Assembly (NCBI GenBank): GCA_022566355.1
Contig: JADFJB010000175.1
Coordinates: 1 to 6,533, forward strand
DNA length: 6,533 nt
From: a candidate division KSB1 bacterium
Lineage (GTDB): Bacteria > Zhuqueibacterota > JdFR-76 > DREG01
Direction of reading: 5' to 3'
The stretch's first letter is position 1, and every line of letters starts with the position of its first letter. Below, one piece after another: positions 251-5,953 of the stretch. Below the pieces are notes generated by a model, which worked only from the letters and a program-made list of their open reading frames with translations, did no database searches and was not told the origin of the DNA. Both the position numbers and the translations under genes were made by a program.

Positions 251-272
251 GAGTCTTGTGAAAGTCAGTGGC
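251..272 (+). repeat. Solo copy of the AGTCTTGTGAAAGTC-GTGGC dispersed repeat
   Basis: The sequence from AGTCTTGTG (252) to GTGGC (272) matches the repeat units that border the GxxExxY gene at 2806-2875 and 3292-3342. The closest is the unit at 2834-2855, which on its complementary strand shares the CAGTGGC ending. It lies in plus orientation in the spacer between the DUF1566 gene and the permease, over 2.5 kb from the other copies, with no ORF attached. Confidence 0.75.
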
Positions 273-387: not shown

Positions 388-2805
388 ATGCTAAAAAATT
401 ATTTCAAAACTGCACTGCGTAGTTTACTGAAGCACAAAGAATATTCGATCATCAATATCCTGGGCCTGGCAATCGGGATGGCATGCGTAATCCTGATCAT
501 GATGTTCGTGCAAGAAGAATTGAGCTATGACCAGTTTCATACCAACAAGGACCAGATCTACAGGGCCAATATTTCTTTCACAAATCCCCAAACCGGTGTT
601 ACCCAGCTAAGAGCCGTTGGTCCCTACCGGCTGGCAAAAGAATTAAAACCTGACTTTCCAGACTTCAAAATTATTCGATTCAATCCACAGGGTCGATCTC
701 TTGTTAGTTATGAAGACAAATCTTTTTATGAACTGGGCCTGGCATTTGTGGATCCGGAAGTCTTCCAGGTTTTCACTTTTCCATTGCTCGAGGGAGACCC
801 GCTAACGGTTTTAGATGAACCGTTCTCGGTGGTTATTTCAGAAGAAATCGCACAAAAATATTATGGTGATGAAGAACCGATTGGTAAAATTCTTACTTTT
901 AGAAGCAATGATTTCAAAGTGACCGGCATACTGGATAAGATGCCGGGCAATACACAATTTCAATTCGACATGTTCGCATCTATGAATTCAGCCGAACGGG
1001 TATTTCAGCGAATTGTACTGGAAAACTGGGGCGAGGGCTCTGCAGAAACATTTATCATGTTACCTAAAGATAAACGGCCTGAAGATTATGAAACACGCCT
1101 GGCTGCATTTGTCGATGTAAAAATACAAGCCTTCAGGCAAGCATCCCCACGTATCGTGCTGCAGCCGCTTTCAGATATCTATTTACATTCTCAAAATATT
1201 GCGGTATTTGCACCTGGCGGTGACAGTACGTATGTTTATGCTTTTACGGCCATTGCAGTTTTTATCCTCATCATCGCTTGTATTAATTTCATGAACCTGG
1301 CAACCGCGCGCTCGGCAAATCGCGCCAAGGAGGTCGGTTTGCGAAAAGTTGTCGGCGCCCATCGTTCGCAATTGATCTGGCAATTTTTGAGTGAAAGCAT
1401 CTTGCTTTCAATTTTGTCCCTGCTAATAGCTGTTGGGCTTGCCTATATATGCTTACCGGCATTCAATAGCCTGGCAGGCAAGGAGTTGGCTTATAATATC
1501 CTGCAAAATGGCCCAATGATTTTTGGACTAATACTCATTACACTTTTTGTAGGAGTCGTTTCAGGCAGCTATCCGGCTTTGTTTTTATCCGCATTTAAAC
1601 CGGTTAGCGTTCTTTCTGGAGCCGTTATGAAAGGCGTGAAAGGCGGTAAATTGCGGAAGTTTCTGGTTACTTTCCAGTTTGCCATTTCGATCTTTTTGAT
1701 TGTAGTGACCGCCATTGTTTACAATCAATTGCAATATGCCCGCAACCTCAAAATAGGATTCGATAAGGAACACCTGGTTCTCCTGCAAAACATACCACAA
1801 ACCATGCGGCAGCATTACGATCAATTCCGGACAGACCTGCTCAGCAATCCAAAAATTATTAATGCTGCGGCATCGTCCCGGGTGCCACCGGGCAGGCTTC
1901 AAAGTAGTCTGGGTACAAGACCGGAAGGCGTCCCGGAAGATCAAAGACGAGGTATGCAAACCGTGTGGACCGACTTTGACTTTATCGAATCCATGGGGTT
2001 TGAGCTTGCATCTGGCCGCAGCTTCTCACGCGATTTCACCACCGATGCAAGCAGCGCTTTTATTCTCAATGAAGCTGCTGTTAAAAGTATAGGTTGGACC
2101 AATGAAACTGCAATAGGTAAAAGTTTCGGCAGTTCGGAAATCAGAGACTGGGACAGCGGCCAGTGGGAGCAGAAAGATGGTTATGTTATTGGTGTGCTGA
2201 AGGATTTTTACTTCGAATCATTGCGGCAGGAAATTATCCCGACAGTCTATTTTATATCGCCGTACATGGCGTGGAATTATGTGATTCGTATTCAACCCGG
2301 AGATATCCAGGAAACCTTGGATTTCATCGAACAGAAATGGCTGGCATTAAATCCGGATCTGCCATTCTTATACACTTTCGTCGATGATAATTTCGAAAGT
2401 CTATACCGTGCCGAGGAGCAGCAGGGAAAAATATTCGGTGTATTTGCGATCCTGGCAATTTTCGTAGCCTGCCTGGGTTTGGTTGGTTTGGCGTCTTTCA
2501 CAGCCGAGCAAAGAACCAAAGAAGTGGGGATCCGTAAAGTGCTCGGCGCGTCGGTCAGTAATATCATCCTGCTGATGTCTAAAGAATTTACCTGGCTGGT
2601 TTTATTTGCTTTCATTGTGGCAGCCCCCTTTGCCTGGTATGTTATGGACCAATGGCTGCAGGAATTTGCTTATCATGTCCCATTAGGGTTGGGGACTTTT
2701 TTCCTGGCAGGTCTTATTTCCATATTAATTGCATGGCTGACTGTGAGTTACCAGGCGACGAAAATTGCGCTAACCAATCCGGTGAATGCATTGCATTATG
2801 AATAA
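388..2805 (+). CDS. ABC transporter permease, MacB/FtsX superfamily (MacB_PCD + FtsX, duplicated)
   Basis: Inner-membrane permease subunit of a MacB/LolC-like type VII ABC system. Such proteins couple cytoplasmic ATP hydrolysis to movement of a periplasmic domain rather than to a classical pore. The 805 residues form two similar halves. Predicted TM segments lie at about 21-42, 283-305, 335-358, 377-400, 425-446, 683-703, 732-752 and 766-788. Large periplasmic MacB_PCD regions occupy about 45-280 and 455-680. Each half carries the conserved cytoplasmic coupling motif after its FtsX helix: NRAKEVGLRKVVGA (311-324) and QRTKEVGIRKVLGA (708-721). The C-terminus NPVNALHYE is also typical. Length matches the ~800-aa family common in Bacteroidota and related phyla. 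The ATG has GGAG at 379-382, 5 nt upstream. No ATPase, membrane-fusion or outer-membrane partner is adjacent, so this is an orphan permease whose substrate cannot be told. The TAA stop is followed at once by a repeat copy. Confidence 0.93.
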   Translation: MLKNYFKTALRSLLKHKEYSIINILGLAIGMACVILIMMFVQEELSYDQFHTNKDQIYRANISFTNPQTGVTQLRAVGPYRLAKELKPDFPDFKIIRFNPQGRSLVSYEDKSFYELGLAFVDPEVFQVFTFPLLEGDPLTVLDEPFSVVISEEIAQKYYGDEEPIGKILTFRSNDFKVTGILDKMPGNTQFQFDMFASMNSAERVFQRIVLENWGEGSAETFIMLPKDKRPEDYETRLAAFVDVKIQAFRQASPRIVLQPLSDIYLHSQNIAVFAPGGDSTYVYAFTAIAVFILIIACINFMNLATARSANRAKEVGLRKVVGAHRSQLIWQFLSESILLSILSLLIAVGLAYICLPAFNSLAGKELAYNILQNGPMIFGLILITLFVGVVSGSYPALFLSAFKPVSVLSGAVMKGVKGGKLRKFLVTFQFAISIFLIVVTAIVYNQLQYARNLKIGFDKEHLVLLQNIPQTMRQHYDQFRTDLLSNPKIINAAASSRVPPGRLQSSLGTRPEGVPEDQRRGMQTVWTDFDFIESMGFELASGRSFSRDFTTDASSAFILNEAAVKSIGWTNETAIGKSFGSSEIRDWDSGQWEQKDGYVIGVLKDFYFESLRQEIIPTVYFISPYMAWNYVIRIQPGDIQETLDFIEQKWLALNPDLPFLYTFVDDNFESLYRAEEQQGKIFGVFAILAIFVACLGLVGLASFTAEQRTKEVGIRKVLGASVSNIILLMSKEFTWLVLFAFIVAAPFAWYVMDQWLQEFAYHVPLGLGTFFLAGLISILIAWLTVSYQATKIALTNPVNALHYE

Positions 2806-2855
2806 AGCCACAGACTTACACAGACTAAAACGGGCCACTGACTTACACAAGACTA
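2806..2855. repeat. Left terminal repeat: two ~27-nt units in tandem
   Basis: Unit 1 is 2806-2827 (begins AGCCACAGACTT, ends GACTA). A linker AAACGG follows, then unit 2 at 2834-2855 (begins GCCACTGACTT, ends AAGACTA). The GCCAC starts are 27 nt apart. Both units read in the same orientation, opposite to that of the right-hand block and of the solo copy at 251-272. Confidence 0.8.
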
Positions 2856-2875
2856 GTCTGTGAAAGTCTGTGGCT
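2834..2875. terminator. Back-to-back repeat palindrome between convergent genes, possible bidirectional terminator
   Basis: Unit 2 (2834-2855) is joined head-to-head to an inverted unit (2854-2875, begins TAGTCTGTG, ends GTGGCT) with a central GACTAGTC. The two arms are complementary over about 20 bp apart from two substitutions and one extra base, so a long hairpin with almost no loop can form in either transcript. It lies between the stop codons of the permease (+) and the GxxExxY gene (-). No U-run follows on either side, so terminator function is inferred from position and structure. Confidence 0.45.
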
Positions 2876-3247
2876 CTATACGATGCGTCTTTTGAATTCC
2901 AGTTTTTCACCAAAGTTCACCAACAATCCAATGTGTATTCCGGACGCCTTGAGGTAATGAATCAATTGTGCTTCGTTTTGTGGTATTAAACTATTTACCG
3001 CCTTAATTTCAATAATTACTGTATCTTCCACTACAATATCTGCTTTAAACTTGCCAATCAATTGATTTTTATAATTAACATTTAGCAATTTCTGGGTTTC
3101 GGCCTTTAGATTTTTATTTCTAAATTCAATCATTAGGGCTTTTCCATAAACAGATTCCAGAAATCCAGCACCCAACTCATCATGCACAATGTAAAAACAT
3201 TTAATGATATTTTTTGTTAGATTTTCATAAAGGAATTCGTTGTTCAC
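2876..3247 (-). CDS. GxxExxY family protein (PD-(D/E)XK nuclease superfamily, PDDEXK_3)
   Basis: This 123-residue protein carries the motif that names the family, G28-F-L-E31-S-V-Y34, inside HDELGAGFLESVYGKAL. It is followed by the likely nuclease core: D70 (KADIVV), then E80-I-K82 in VIIEIKAV, and Q94 in NEAQLIHYLKA. The order D...E-x-K...Q is that of the PD-(D/E)XK fold, so the catalytic residues appear intact. Length is typical for the family, whose biological role is not settled. The start is GTG at 3245-3247, supported by GGGGAG at 3253-3258 with 5-nt spacing; there is no better ATG. The TAG stop directly touches a repeat copy ending at 2875. The gene is the sole occupant of a repeat-bounded interval, suggesting it acts on those repeats or travels with them, but that is inference. 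Cytoplasmic; no signal peptide or TM segment. Confidence 0.88.
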   Translation of the reverse strand: MNNEFLYENLTKNIIKCFYIVHDELGAGFLESVYGKALMIEFRNKNLKAETQKLLNVNYKNQLIGKFKADIVVEDTVIIEIKAVNSLIPQNEAQLIHYLKASGIHIGLLVNFGEKLEFKRRIV

Positions 3248-3273
3248 TTAATCTCCCCATCTTTATTTTCAAT

Positions 3274-3303
3274 ATTTTAGCAGTGGCCGTTTTGTCTTGT
3301 GAA
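3274..3303 (-). promoter_or_regulatory. Predicted promoter of the GxxExxY gene, -35 inside a repeat copy
   Basis: On the minus strand, TTCACA (3303-3298; 5 of 6 to TTGACA) and TAAAAT (3279-3274; 5 of 6 to TATAAT) are separated by 18 nt. Transcription would start near 3267, about 9 nt before the Shine-Dalgarno and 20 nt before the GTG. The -35 hexamer is part of the conserved repeat (GTGAA on the plus strand). Confidence 0.45.
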
Positions 3304-3342
3304 AATCTGTGGCCGCTTTTAGTCTTGTGAAAGTCTGTGGCT
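3281..3342. repeat. Right terminal repeat: two full units plus a truncated third
   Basis: Full units are 3320-3342 (TAGTCTTGTGAAAG..., ends GTGGCT) and 3293-3313 (TGTCTTGTGAAAA..., ends GTGGC). A truncated CAGTGGC lies at 3281-3287. GTGGC starts at 3283, 3309 and 3337, so periods are 26 and 28 nt. Linkers CGTTTT and CGCTTTT are the complement of the linker in the left block. Orientation is opposite to the left block. The outermost unit overlaps the OCD stop codon. Confidence 0.8.
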
Positions 3343-4339
3343 ATTTTTTCCCACCAAATTCAACCCAGGTGCCCTTACCGGCTTTACACATTTTTTGATA
3401 AATGTGATACGCAGATGCGATATCCTCCACAGCTAAACCCAGGGATTTAAACAGAGTGATTTCATCCTCAGATTTTCGTCCATCAATTTTGTCCAGAAGT
3501 ATTTCTCCGATTTCACCCTGAATATGACTGTCATCGATGGCGCCTTCTTTTTTGGGAAAAAGAAAATCACCTGCTTCATTGATTGTAGACTCTACTCTAT
3601 CCACAATCAGGCGTGATTTGACCACAGCTGTTGTATCCAGTTCTCGAGCATATTTGACGCTGGAACCAACGGCGTTGATATGGGCGCCAGGCGCCAGCCA
3701 CTCCCCCATTAAAATAGGTTCTGTTGCTGATGTGGTTGTACAAATGATATCCGCGCCATCAACTGCTTCCTTTACAGTATGAACTGGCTCTATCTCAATG
3801 TTATGTTTTGCTGACTCATTTTTCATAAATCGTTTTGCATTTTCTTCGTTTCTACTCCAGACTCGGACCCTGGTGATTTTACGAGCATGAATCATAGCCT
3901 CTAAGTGAGACCGAGCCTGCACACCCGAGCCAAGGATCGCGAGGTTGCTGGCAGATTCTTTCGCCAGTAGCCTGGTTGCCACTCCACTCACTGCGGCGGT
4001 GCGAATGGCCGTGATTTCGCTTGCATCCATTATTGCTAAAAGTCGCCCATGTTTCGTTTCAAAGATCATCACCGAACCCTGGTGAGAATCATATTCTGTT
4101 TCATGGTTACCCGGAAATACACTTACCGCTTTCAGTCCCATAACTTCGGGTTCGCCTAAATAACAGGGCATCATTCCCAGAATTCCACTGCGATCCGGCA
4201 ACTGTAAGCCCCAACGTAATGGATTTACTGCATTTCCCAATGCCAGGGTTTTTAGGGTATCGGACATAAGTTCCATGCATTCTCGCATGGGCAGATATTC
4301 TCGGACTTCTTTGTGGTTTACAAGTAGAACGACCATCAT
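3341..4339 (-). CDS. Ornithine cyclodeaminase / mu-crystallin family NAD(P)-dependent dehydrogenase
   Basis: A 332-residue cytoplasmic enzyme of the OCD_Mu_crystall family, which includes ornithine cyclodeaminase, archaeal-type alanine dehydrogenase and ketimine reductase. Visible landmarks are R42 in PLRWGLQLP and K70 in MGLKAVSVFPGN, family carboxylate-binding positions. Others are SEITAIRTAAVSG (107-119), the Rossmann loop G137-S-G139-V-Q141, the DIICTTT strand (197-203), HINAVGSS (220-227) and AVEDIASA near the C-terminus. True ornithine cyclodeaminases, as I recall, carry a catalytic Asp just after the NAVG motif (G-G-D-x-P-G-K). Here the sequence is S-S-V-K-Y-A-R-E-L-D, so an alanine-dehydrogenase or imine-reductase activity is more likely than ornithine deamination. 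Two adjacent ATGs (4337-4339 and 4334-4336) are possible starts. GAGGTG at 4341-4346 fits the second better. The TAG stop shares its AG with the neighbouring repeat. Confidence 0.9.
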   Translation of the reverse strand: MMVVLLVNHKEVREYLPMRECMELMSDTLKTLALGNAVNPLRWGLQLPDRSGILGMMPCYLGEPEVMGLKAVSVFPGNHETEYDSHQGSVMIFETKHGRLLAIMDASEITAIRTAAVSGVATRLLAKESASNLAILGSGVQARSHLEAMIHARKITRVRVWSRNEENAKRFMKNESAKHNIEIEPVHTVKEAVDGADIICTTTSATEPILMGEWLAPGAHINAVGSSVKYARELDTTAVVKSRLIVDRVESTINEAGDFLFPKKEGAIDDSHIQGEIGEILLDKIDGRKSEDEITLFKSLGLAVEDIASAYHIYQKMCKAGKGTWVEFGGKK

Positions 4340-4505: not shown

Positions 4506-5213
4506 TCAACATCTTGCCATTTTTCGTTTTTTGCCTATTCGATCTTTGTCCTTAACTTTCTGGATATAGTCTGGTGCATCGGGTACTTTGCAGGCTGTTC
4601 CACCCATATCAACTTCAACTTTTCCTATTTTTTCGGCGATAGCAGTGGCTTTATTGGTTAGAGAGGCAATATAGGTTCCAACGGCGATAACAAAGCCATT
4701 CATCGTAAACCTGACCCGGTTCTGTGAGTTGTGAATATTTCTCGCTACCCTATCCAATAATCCTTCAAATATTTTGATATCCAAATCGCTATCCGGTTTT
4801 ATGGAAACCAAATTTGACAGCGTCGACCAACCCGCGGATGCGATCCCTTCTTTCTCTGATTCAATCCATTCCAGGCCCAATTCCATTCCATAGCTGCTTT
4901 CTGCTGCGATCCATGCGACCGTATATTCGCTGATCATATACCAGTAAGCTTCTTTTACCCATTTATTGAGGTCACTTCTTGAGATTTTGTTTTCATCGGC
5001 GATAAGACCCGCAAGATACATGGCATCTGAATTTCCTGTAGCGTATAGTTCCATGGATAATTCATGGTGCTTTTTTACTTTTTTTTGGATTTTTTTCAGG
5101 TCTTGAACTTTAACTCCATAAAACGGTTCTCTGGCGCCATGTTTAAGGAATATCTTTTTCGTTCCTTCATCTCCATAACCTTTTAATTCCTTTAATATTT
5201 TTTCAGTTGTCAT
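4506..5213 (-). CDS. DNA alkylation repair protein, AlkD-like HEAT-repeat family
   Basis: This 235-residue all-helical protein fits the HEAT-like-repeat DNA glycosylase superfamily (AlkC/AlkD). The N-terminus shows the family pattern F31-Y-G-V-K-V-Q-D-L-K-K-I (compare FGVRVPDLRKI). The central helices carry AYWYMISEYTVAWIAAES (89-106) and SAGWSTLSNLV (126-136). The C-terminus has VDMGGTACKVPDAPDYI (201-217) and a basic RIGKKRK tail. B. cereus AlkD uses Trp109, Asp113, Arg148 and Trp187 to excise alkylated bases. The WD and RR motifs around those residues are not recognisable here, so this appears to be the CKVP-type subfamily, whose glycosylase activity is uncertain. AAGGAG at 5219-5224, 5 nt from the ATG, is a strong ribosome-binding site. 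It lies 166 nt upstream of the OCD gene on the same strand, with no obvious terminator between, so readthrough is possible. Cytoplasmic. Confidence 0.85.
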   Translation of the reverse strand: MTTEKILKELKGYGDEGTKKIFLKHGAREPFYGVKVQDLKKIQKKVKKHHELSMELYATGNSDAMYLAGLIADENKISRSDLNKWVKEAYWYMISEYTVAWIAAESSYGMELGLEWIESEKEGIASAGWSTLSNLVSIKPDSDLDIKIFEGLLDRVARNIHNSQNRVRFTMNGFVIAVGTYIASLTNKATAIAEKIGKVEVDMGGTACKVPDAPDYIQKVKDKDRIGKKRKMARC

Positions 5214-5303: not shown

Positions 5304-5801
5304 TCAGATATTTATTTTGGCTATTTTATTATGAATATCGTTTACTTGCTTTAAAGCGGCCGATCCATACCAGGGATGCAATTCCATGATTAACCTGCCA
5401 GCCTTTATCGCCGGATCGGTCTCCGTCAACTTTTTCGCTTCCTCAACAGTCTCTACATCGAAAATATAAATTCCTCGAAATTCACCGCCATCCAGAAAAG
5501 GACCGGCTAAAGTCAGTTTTCCTTCATCTGCTAATCTCCGGATATTTTCCATATGAGCTTGCTGTAATTTTGCAGCCGTTAGGGAATCCTGGTCGCGATT
5601 GGGACCGGCTTTGAGAAAGGCTAAAACATATTTCCTCATGCCATATTCATCGGCGCCCAATTTTGAGGCAAGTTCTTGATCAAAAACTATTCTTTCAGAT
5701 TGGGATTCATGGTTTGCTTCTTTTGTGTTCTCATGATCTGAGGTGCAGCTCAATATTATTATTGAACCTATTATTAGCATAATTACAATTTTTGTTTTCA
5801 T
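5304..5801 (-). CDS. YCII-domain (YciI-like) lipoprotein
   Basis: The start was set at ATG 5799-5801 because AAAGGA (5809-5814) lies 7 nt upstream and because this start yields a proper lipoprotein signal: MKTK, a hydrophobic core (5-17), then I-L-S-C19. The open frame continues 32 codons further upstream, but that extension has no signal character and is probably untranslated. The mature 147 residues begin with a charged linker (20-50), followed by a YCII domain at about 55-150: MRKYVLAFLKAGPNR, H83 in QQAHMENIRRL, AGPFLDGGEFRGIYIF (99-114), D129 in TDPAIKAGRLIMELHPWYG. The ferredoxin-like YCII fold uses a conserved His/Asp pair in some members, and H83 and D129 are candidates. Most YCII proteins are small and cytosolic; a lipid-anchored copy would sit at the periplasmic face of a membrane, probably the outer one. 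Role unknown. Confidence 0.85.
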   Translation of the reverse strand: MKTKIVIMLIIGSIIILSCTSDHENTKEANHESQSERIVFDQELASKLGADEYGMRKYVLAFLKAGPNRDQDSLTAAKLQQAHMENIRRLADEGKLTLAGPFLDGGEFRGIYIFDVETVEEAKKLTETDPAIKAGRLIMELHPWYGSAALKQVNDIHNKIAKINI

Positions 5802-5953
5802 AGAGGATTCCTTTACGCCCGGTCCACTCCCAGGTCTTGAGTAAACCATTAATAATTGTGAATTGCAGTTTAATCCAGCAAGATTAAGATTATTCAAGCT
5901 CTATAATAAAAACAACCGTATTACCGGGAATACCCTATTTCATTTATTTATGT

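Follow-up and report, generated by a model that had tools for sequence, protein, structure and literature searches.

A single GxxExxY nuclease gene, set between inverted arrays of short repeats, occupies an intergenic gap in the genome of a candidate division KSB1 bacterium, and the question raised by this locus is whether the gene and the repeats form one unit and, if so, of what kind. The window analyzed here is the whole 6,533-nt stretch of DNA that contains it (contig JADFJB010000175.1). We consider the 0.54-kb unit to be probably a REPtron-like mobile element, in which a single PD-(D/E)XK nuclease is combined with inverted arrays of a word recognized by its clade. In open-access PMC articles, no paper was found on the role of GxxExxY/PF13366 proteins or on the repeats.

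The nuclease gene and its arrays in the window

The GxxExxY/PDDEXK_3 nuclease gene (2876–3247, minus strand) encodes a protein of 123 aa, which matches the HMMs PF13366 PDDEXK_3 (E 7e-39, 133.2 bits, cut-off 22) and TIGR04256 GxxExxY (E 8e-40, 135.8 bits, cut-off 35), and its GTG start at 3247 aligns with the ATG of relatives. The motif residues G28xxE31xxY34, D70, E80-x-K82 and Q94 are all present, as is Y98, which completes a QxxxY motif with Q94; the original prediction had described D70, E80-x-K82 and Q94 as apparently intact. A comparison of 96 relatives shows 85–100% conservation at G28, E31, Y34, D70, E80, K82, Q94 and Y98. In these relatives E80 is replaced by D in 11%, and N111 and R120 are nearly invariant. 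The window nuclease is a PD-(D/E)XK protein of the QxxxY (RecB/Cas4-like) type, with a nuclease fold of the dsDNA type, and not an HUH transposase. PF13366 is its sole Pfam match, and the HUH Y1 transposase domain (PF01797) that characterizes REPtrons is absent. An AlphaFold model built from a five-sequence alignment had a pLDDT of 51, and its Foldseek matches were meaningless.

The element is bounded on the left by the stop codon of an FtsX/MacB permease gene (388–2805, plus strand; stop 2803–2805) and on the right by the stop codon (TAG, 3341–3343, minus strand) of a convergent gene of the ornithine cyclodeaminase (OCD) family (3341–4339). Given these two stops, the gene and its arrays fill the whole 535-bp gap, just as had been proposed from the sequence. 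The neighbors are ordinary, and the other genes nearby belong to the DNA alkylation repair (HEAT-like) family (4506–5213) and encode a YCII-domain protein (5304–5897).

The repeat unit measures 27/28 nt and is built of two 10-nt half-words (CCACAGACTTACACAGAC); the 20-nt unit is matched four times in the window at up to three mismatches, whereas 0.01 would be expected by chance. The left array, against which the nuclease stop codon (TAG, 2876–2878, minus strand) directly abuts, consists of two minus-strand units at 27-nt spacing, the outer one at 2806–2827 (AGCCACAGACTTACACAGACTA, an exact match to the cognate word) and the second at 2833–2855 (GCCACTGACTTACACAAGACTA), followed by a plus-strand unit in the opposite orientation at 2854–2875 (AGTCTGTGAAAGTCTGTGGCT). 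Pairing of this third unit with the first gives the left array a 26-bp hairpin of its own. On the right, a partial unit recognized from its sequence at ~3281–3289 (plus strand, half-word CAGTGGCC) precedes two plus-strand units at 28-nt spacing, located at 3294–3314 (GTCTTGTGAAAATCTGTGGCC) and 3321–3342 (AGTCTTGTGAAAGTCTGTGGCT, outer). The outer end of this array, TAGCC, contributes to the stop codon of the neighbor, its final two bases lying within the OCD stop. The inverted arms pair 2822–2853 with 3294–3325 (84%) and 2827–2855 with 3320–3348. Inverted terminal arrays of 27-nt units, proposed at ~50 bp, are therefore real, but the left one has a more complex layout than a plain arm. A solo unit without a gene is found at 252–272 (plus strand), upstream of the FtsX-permease gene.

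Flanking arrays and word grammar across GxxExxY loci

GxxExxY genes are present in 52 of 59 related genomes, with up to 17 matches per genome, and many of the copies are broken, truncated or interrupted; most of the genomes compared are MAGs. S23, RAYT and DUF559 genes each have their own repeat class and were thus unsuitable as neutral controls; positions ~1 kb away took their place. For the first 31 GxxExxY loci with full flanks, the 300 bp on one side were matched in inverted orientation with the 300 bp on the other, as was done for pseudo-gene positions ~1 kb away, and an inverted-repeat score of at least 12 was reached by 84% of the loci and 4% of the 56 pseudo-gene positions. The association extends to the full set, with 66% of 101 loci scoring at least 12 against 3.4% of 87 controls, and with word pairs in both arms at 64 of the 101 genes against 0 of 89 control positions. 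About a third of the 101 loci have no clear arms under the criteria applied, some of them being decayed or distant-subfamily genes. Enrichment of repeats at other GxxExxY loci, on which the original prediction hinged, is thus borne out by both measures.

Within a locus the two arms match far better than arms of different loci do (56% vs. 1.5% at a score of at least 16), which indicates that each locus has its own word; a single universal repeat for all GxxExxY loci is ruled out by the 1.5% of cross-locus matches. The word-to-word length of the elements has a median of 540 bp, and no second gene recurs within them. The first word lies at most 15 nt from a facing stop codon in 21 of 84 cases. 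Of six records outside the genome set, taken from a plasmid collection, four (Bacteroides finegoldii, Bernardetia, Fusobacteria ZRK30 and Treponema) have similar inverted flanks, which are strong in B. finegoldii and weak in Fusobacteria ZRK30 and Treponema. Positive records numbered 0 of 50,697 phages and 6 of 72,556 plasmids, and viral contigs yielded 0 relatives and 0 exact word matches; carriage by phages or plasmids is accordingly unsupported. In genomes of family f16, some PF13366 matches lie in frames of 240–330 aa, some with two tandem domains (G035:C37, G057:C225 and others), and the flanks of this larger subfamily show no short-word arrays.

The words obey a shared grammar, CRCNRA plus a base X, repeated every 8, 9 or 10 nt and facing inward on both sides. 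X is identical in 298 of 327 word pairs within loci, compared with 40% expected under independence. Word features were mapped onto a tree of 101 nuclease proteins, which comprises only 117 columns; 18 of the 101 loci have no assignable X, and the others fall into the classes T (39), G (35), A (5) and C (4). X requires 4 changes on this tree, where 1000 label shuffles averaged 33.7 and never went below 27; the fit is looser for the fifth word base, with 12 changes (24.7 when shuffled), and for the word spacing, with 17 (37.2 when shuffled). Host family, with 67 changes against a shuffled mean of 70.5 and minimum of 65, is close to random, which implies that GxxExxY genes pass between families almost freely. 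Each nuclease clade bears its own matching word, and the genes are horizontally transferred. The proposed pairing of gene and repeat is therefore supported, through both the enrichment at other loci and the way words follow the nuclease tree. Repeats also occur near GxxExxY genes as the original prediction had stated, but the CTGTG-rich form named there is one dialect of the wider grammar.

The window illustrates the same behavior. Genes with X = G, T, C and T (L009, L010, L011 and L012) coexist in its genome, and the closest relatives of the window nuclease belong to other phyla (an Alphaproteobacteria MAG, 70%, and an Armatimonadota MAG, 66%), whereas the best one inside its own phylum reaches 52%. 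The 19-nt window word GCCACAGACTTACACAGAC is 19/19 identical in L017, from an Alphaproteobacteria MAG, and in L021, and close variants of it are found at L018 and L022. Fourfold-degenerate sites compared with the four testable relatives (L017–L020) are saturated, with 25 of 82 identical. That the word has been kept while neutral sites were randomized points to selection or concerted copying, and the simplest cause would be its recognition by the nuclease of the clade; from the co-variation we infer that this nuclease binds the word directly. The G clade is set apart at nuclease columns corresponding to window positions 97, 101, 113, 114, 117 and 118, which are candidate specificity positions confounded by descent, since X changes independently only four times.

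Solo copies, insertion sites and alternative origins of the arrays

Solo copies of the words are dispersed through genomes and are tied to the presence of the cognate gene. The window word (at most 2 mismatches in 19) has 27 copies in its own genome, which carries one cognate gene. Elsewhere in the phylum, 81 genomes contain 0 copies within 1 mismatch and six at 2 mismatches, the latter in three genomes and five of them readable as words with X = A or X = T; no copy of the reversed control pattern was counted. The solo copies comprise single units (L232, L245), tandems (two units at L248, four at L250) and hairpins (L246, L253, L255), and L245 and L248 share homologous flanks around one and two units, respectively. 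T- and G-word copies together average 12.2 in the 52 PF13366-positive genomes and number 0–1 in the 7 negative ones (p = 0.0014), with reversed-pattern controls for both near zero. The repeats are thus not equally frequent in genomes that lack the gene, whereas equal frequency would have undone the original prediction; the window word itself gives 27 copies against 0–3 elsewhere.

Exceptions are G037, with 26 G-words, and G026, with 11, in which all nucleases detected belong to a different X class. Repeats can thus persist or move without a detected nuclease of the matching clade, and these G-words may be either relic or trans-mobilized arrays. The high word count of G002 is due in part to hitchhiking of a hairpin in an IS-like element: at ten sites (L309–L318), a T-word hairpin array lies within an IS-like element that ends in GTGTTAC and is present in multiple, near-identical copies. 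The copies differ in how many words they contain but are nearly identical otherwise, L312 lacking a stretch of words and L317 having an altered word, which suggests array-specific instability.

The orphaned words of G037 and G026, the excess of solo over gene-bearing arrays and the occurrence of RAYT genes in 51 of the 59 genomes would also fit a scheme in which the repeats are a mobile unit moved in trans by a host recombinase or unlinked transposase, with the nuclease as cargo or regulator and the co-variation as mere linkage. We regard this as unlikely. Linkage alone predicts drift as at neutral sites, whereas the words are identical despite saturated fourfold sites and stay matched between the two flanks of the gene. 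Moreover, a second gene is never recurrent in the elements, and genuine RAYT loci of these genomes have repeats of a different, palindromic kind.

Markedly less probable is a role of the arrays as operators or other control sites for a chromosomal defense or toxin-like nuclease, with the solo copies acting as decoys or protected self-sites. PD-(D/E)XK proteins are common in defense systems, and tandem half-words spaced ~10 nt apart resemble protein-binding sites; however, operators are needed on the promoter side only, whereas most loci have inverted arrays at both ends, many gene copies are truncated or broken, a partner gene is absent, and the solo copies are scattered and of variable length.

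The REPtron-like reading is also informed by sites at which the element is precisely present in one genome and absent in another. A GxxExxY element is located between dnaN and recF in G048 and G053, which are 97% identical there, while their congeners G036 and G024 read dnaN-TGA-AAT/TAT-ATG-recF, with a 3-nt gap and no element; in G080 the gap is 8 nt. What is inserted is the gene together with its two inverted arrays (TTTAGCCACGGATNNGCACGGAT ends), and neither coding frame is disrupted. The empty site of G036 and G024 contains no word, and at most a short A/T-rich AAAT is seen on each side, with no clear target-site duplication visible. This was the only same-genus empty site obtained, and at this one locus it delimits the element against relatives lacking it, as had been envisaged. 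Between nuoH and nuoJ, a broken element in G033 (L217) is absent from G035, whose gap carries a solo heptamer-like array instead. Presence and absence at these junctions indicate that elements are gained as a unit, arrays included. Since the empty dnaN-recF site is repeat-free, insertion is not explained by simple homing into a pre-existing array; of the minimal homing- or REP-like system proposed originally, the REP-like part is supported, and classic homing gains no support from this site.

Core-operon junctions seem to be landing places common to the GxxExxY and S23 classes. An S23 gene (L080) lies between nuoK and nuoL in G035. The oxidoreductase-wecB junction is filled in both G021 and G017, and G009 lacks synteny there. 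Beside the GxxExxY gene of G017 at this junction (L273, G017:C3), between the ORFs at 3372–3890 and 5059–6783, two extra short ORFs resemble, as judged by eye, an MNT-type nucleotidyltransferase and a HEPN-like partner, whereas G021 has the GxxExxY gene only.

The position of elements at gene ends and inter-cistronic junctions, including the 21 of 84 first words close to facing stops, and the frequency of intergenic repeat arrays in the genomes studied could suggest that the arrays are host-side repeats, such as terminators or junction repeats, which the gene prefers as insertion sites. This is improbable, slightly more so than control by operators: the word tracks the nuclease tree and not the host, several words coexist in one host, each paired with its own gene, and the repeat-free dnaN-recF site implies that array and gene arrive together relative to the sister species. 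An origin by chance, assembly artefact or contamination is practically negligible even though most genomes are many-contig MAGs and repeats break assemblies, given that the architecture occurs at none of the 89 control positions, that reversed patterns are near zero in genome counts and that the complete, named record of B. finegoldii has it too; chance is ruled out by the shuffles and pseudo-gene controls.

Relation to known systems and parallel gene–repeat classes

In REPtrons, a RAYT/TnpA-REP HUH transposase gene is accompanied by inverted REP/BIME/REPIN repeats that are also dispersed intergenically, with enzyme class and repeat class varying together (PMC8266576, PMC2817692, PMC3116915); tnpA-REP is mostly single-copy, without evidence of mobility (PMC8266576). 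The GxxExxY gene likewise lies between inverted copies of its cognate repeat, which is also dispersed through the genome, and its clades co-vary with repeat sequence, as the few changes of X on the nuclease tree document. The two differ in the enzyme, PD-(D/E)XK (PF13366) instead of HUH Y1 (PF01797), and in the repeats, which are direct words with a period of 8–10 nt and not GTAG/CGTC-tagged palindromes. In addition, multiple copies, horizontal transfer and presence/absence polymorphism are frequent for the GxxExxY gene. The REPtron is the nearest functional analogue of the GxxExxY element, and membership fails on enzyme class and repeat form.

Homing endonuclease genes offer a second comparison, being selfish, sequence-specific single nuclease genes spread by break repair, as proposed here for GxxExxY. 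However, the one empty GxxExxY site examined, dnaN-recF, has no recognition word, the element bears many putative target copies at its own ends, and its insertion is intergenic, without an intron or intein. With IS elements and MITEs, the GxxExxY elements share inverted terminal repeats, multiple copies, intergenic location and gene-less derivatives, but they lack a DDE, HUH or serine/tyrosine recombinase gene and hence the defining transposase, and their ends are tandem word arrays in place of unique TIRs, with no clear target-site duplication at dnaN-recF.

Under the REPtron-like reading, nuclease protomers would bind half-words that lie roughly a helical turn from each other, and the nuclease would cleave within or beside the array. 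Break repair could then copy array units, or the entire gene-bearing unit, to new places, and it could alter the number of units in an array. Whether GxxExxY nucleases as a whole make up a class of mobile elements that is widespread and lacks a recognized transposase, with nuclease and clade-specific word as an interchangeable recognition pair and with S23 and DUF559 as parallel classes, is in our judgment evenly balanced. GxxExxY is a common and widely annotated family, and the tie between clade and word offers it a testable function in the form of sequence recognition governed by a readable code; ~100 natural protein–word pairs are available, in which the single base X tracks the protein tree. 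The abundant CTGTG-, CCGCA- and CACGGAT-type intergenic repeats of environmental bacteria would thereby be explained. If parallel classes such as S23 and DUF559 do exist, repeat-coupled single-gene elements would be general, extending beyond REPtrons, and elements made of one gene plus its cognate repeat would form a general and largely unrecognized part of bacterial genomes.

S23 genes (23S rRNA intervening-sequence protein, PF05635) with their heptamer arrays look like a parallel gene–repeat class. They resemble the GxxExxY elements in that a single small gene lies within inverted short-period arrays in the same genomes, and differ in having a four-helix bundle fold and a word of period 7. 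At the S23 loci L052–L081, genes are found between inverted heptamer arrays, e.g., TCAGCTATCAGCTTTCAG and GTTCCGGGTTCCGAGTTCCGGGTT, and G000 has 18 S23 matches. Lag-7 autocorrelation at S23 loci is 0.342 against 0.266 in controls, and the inverted-flank score is at least 12 in 67% against 6%. The DUF559 (PF04480, Vsr-like) loci L112–L141 often lie between CCCCCTT..AAGGGGG or CCCTCTCCCT..AGGGAGAGGG palindromes, and 48% of DUF559 loci, against 6%, score at least 12.
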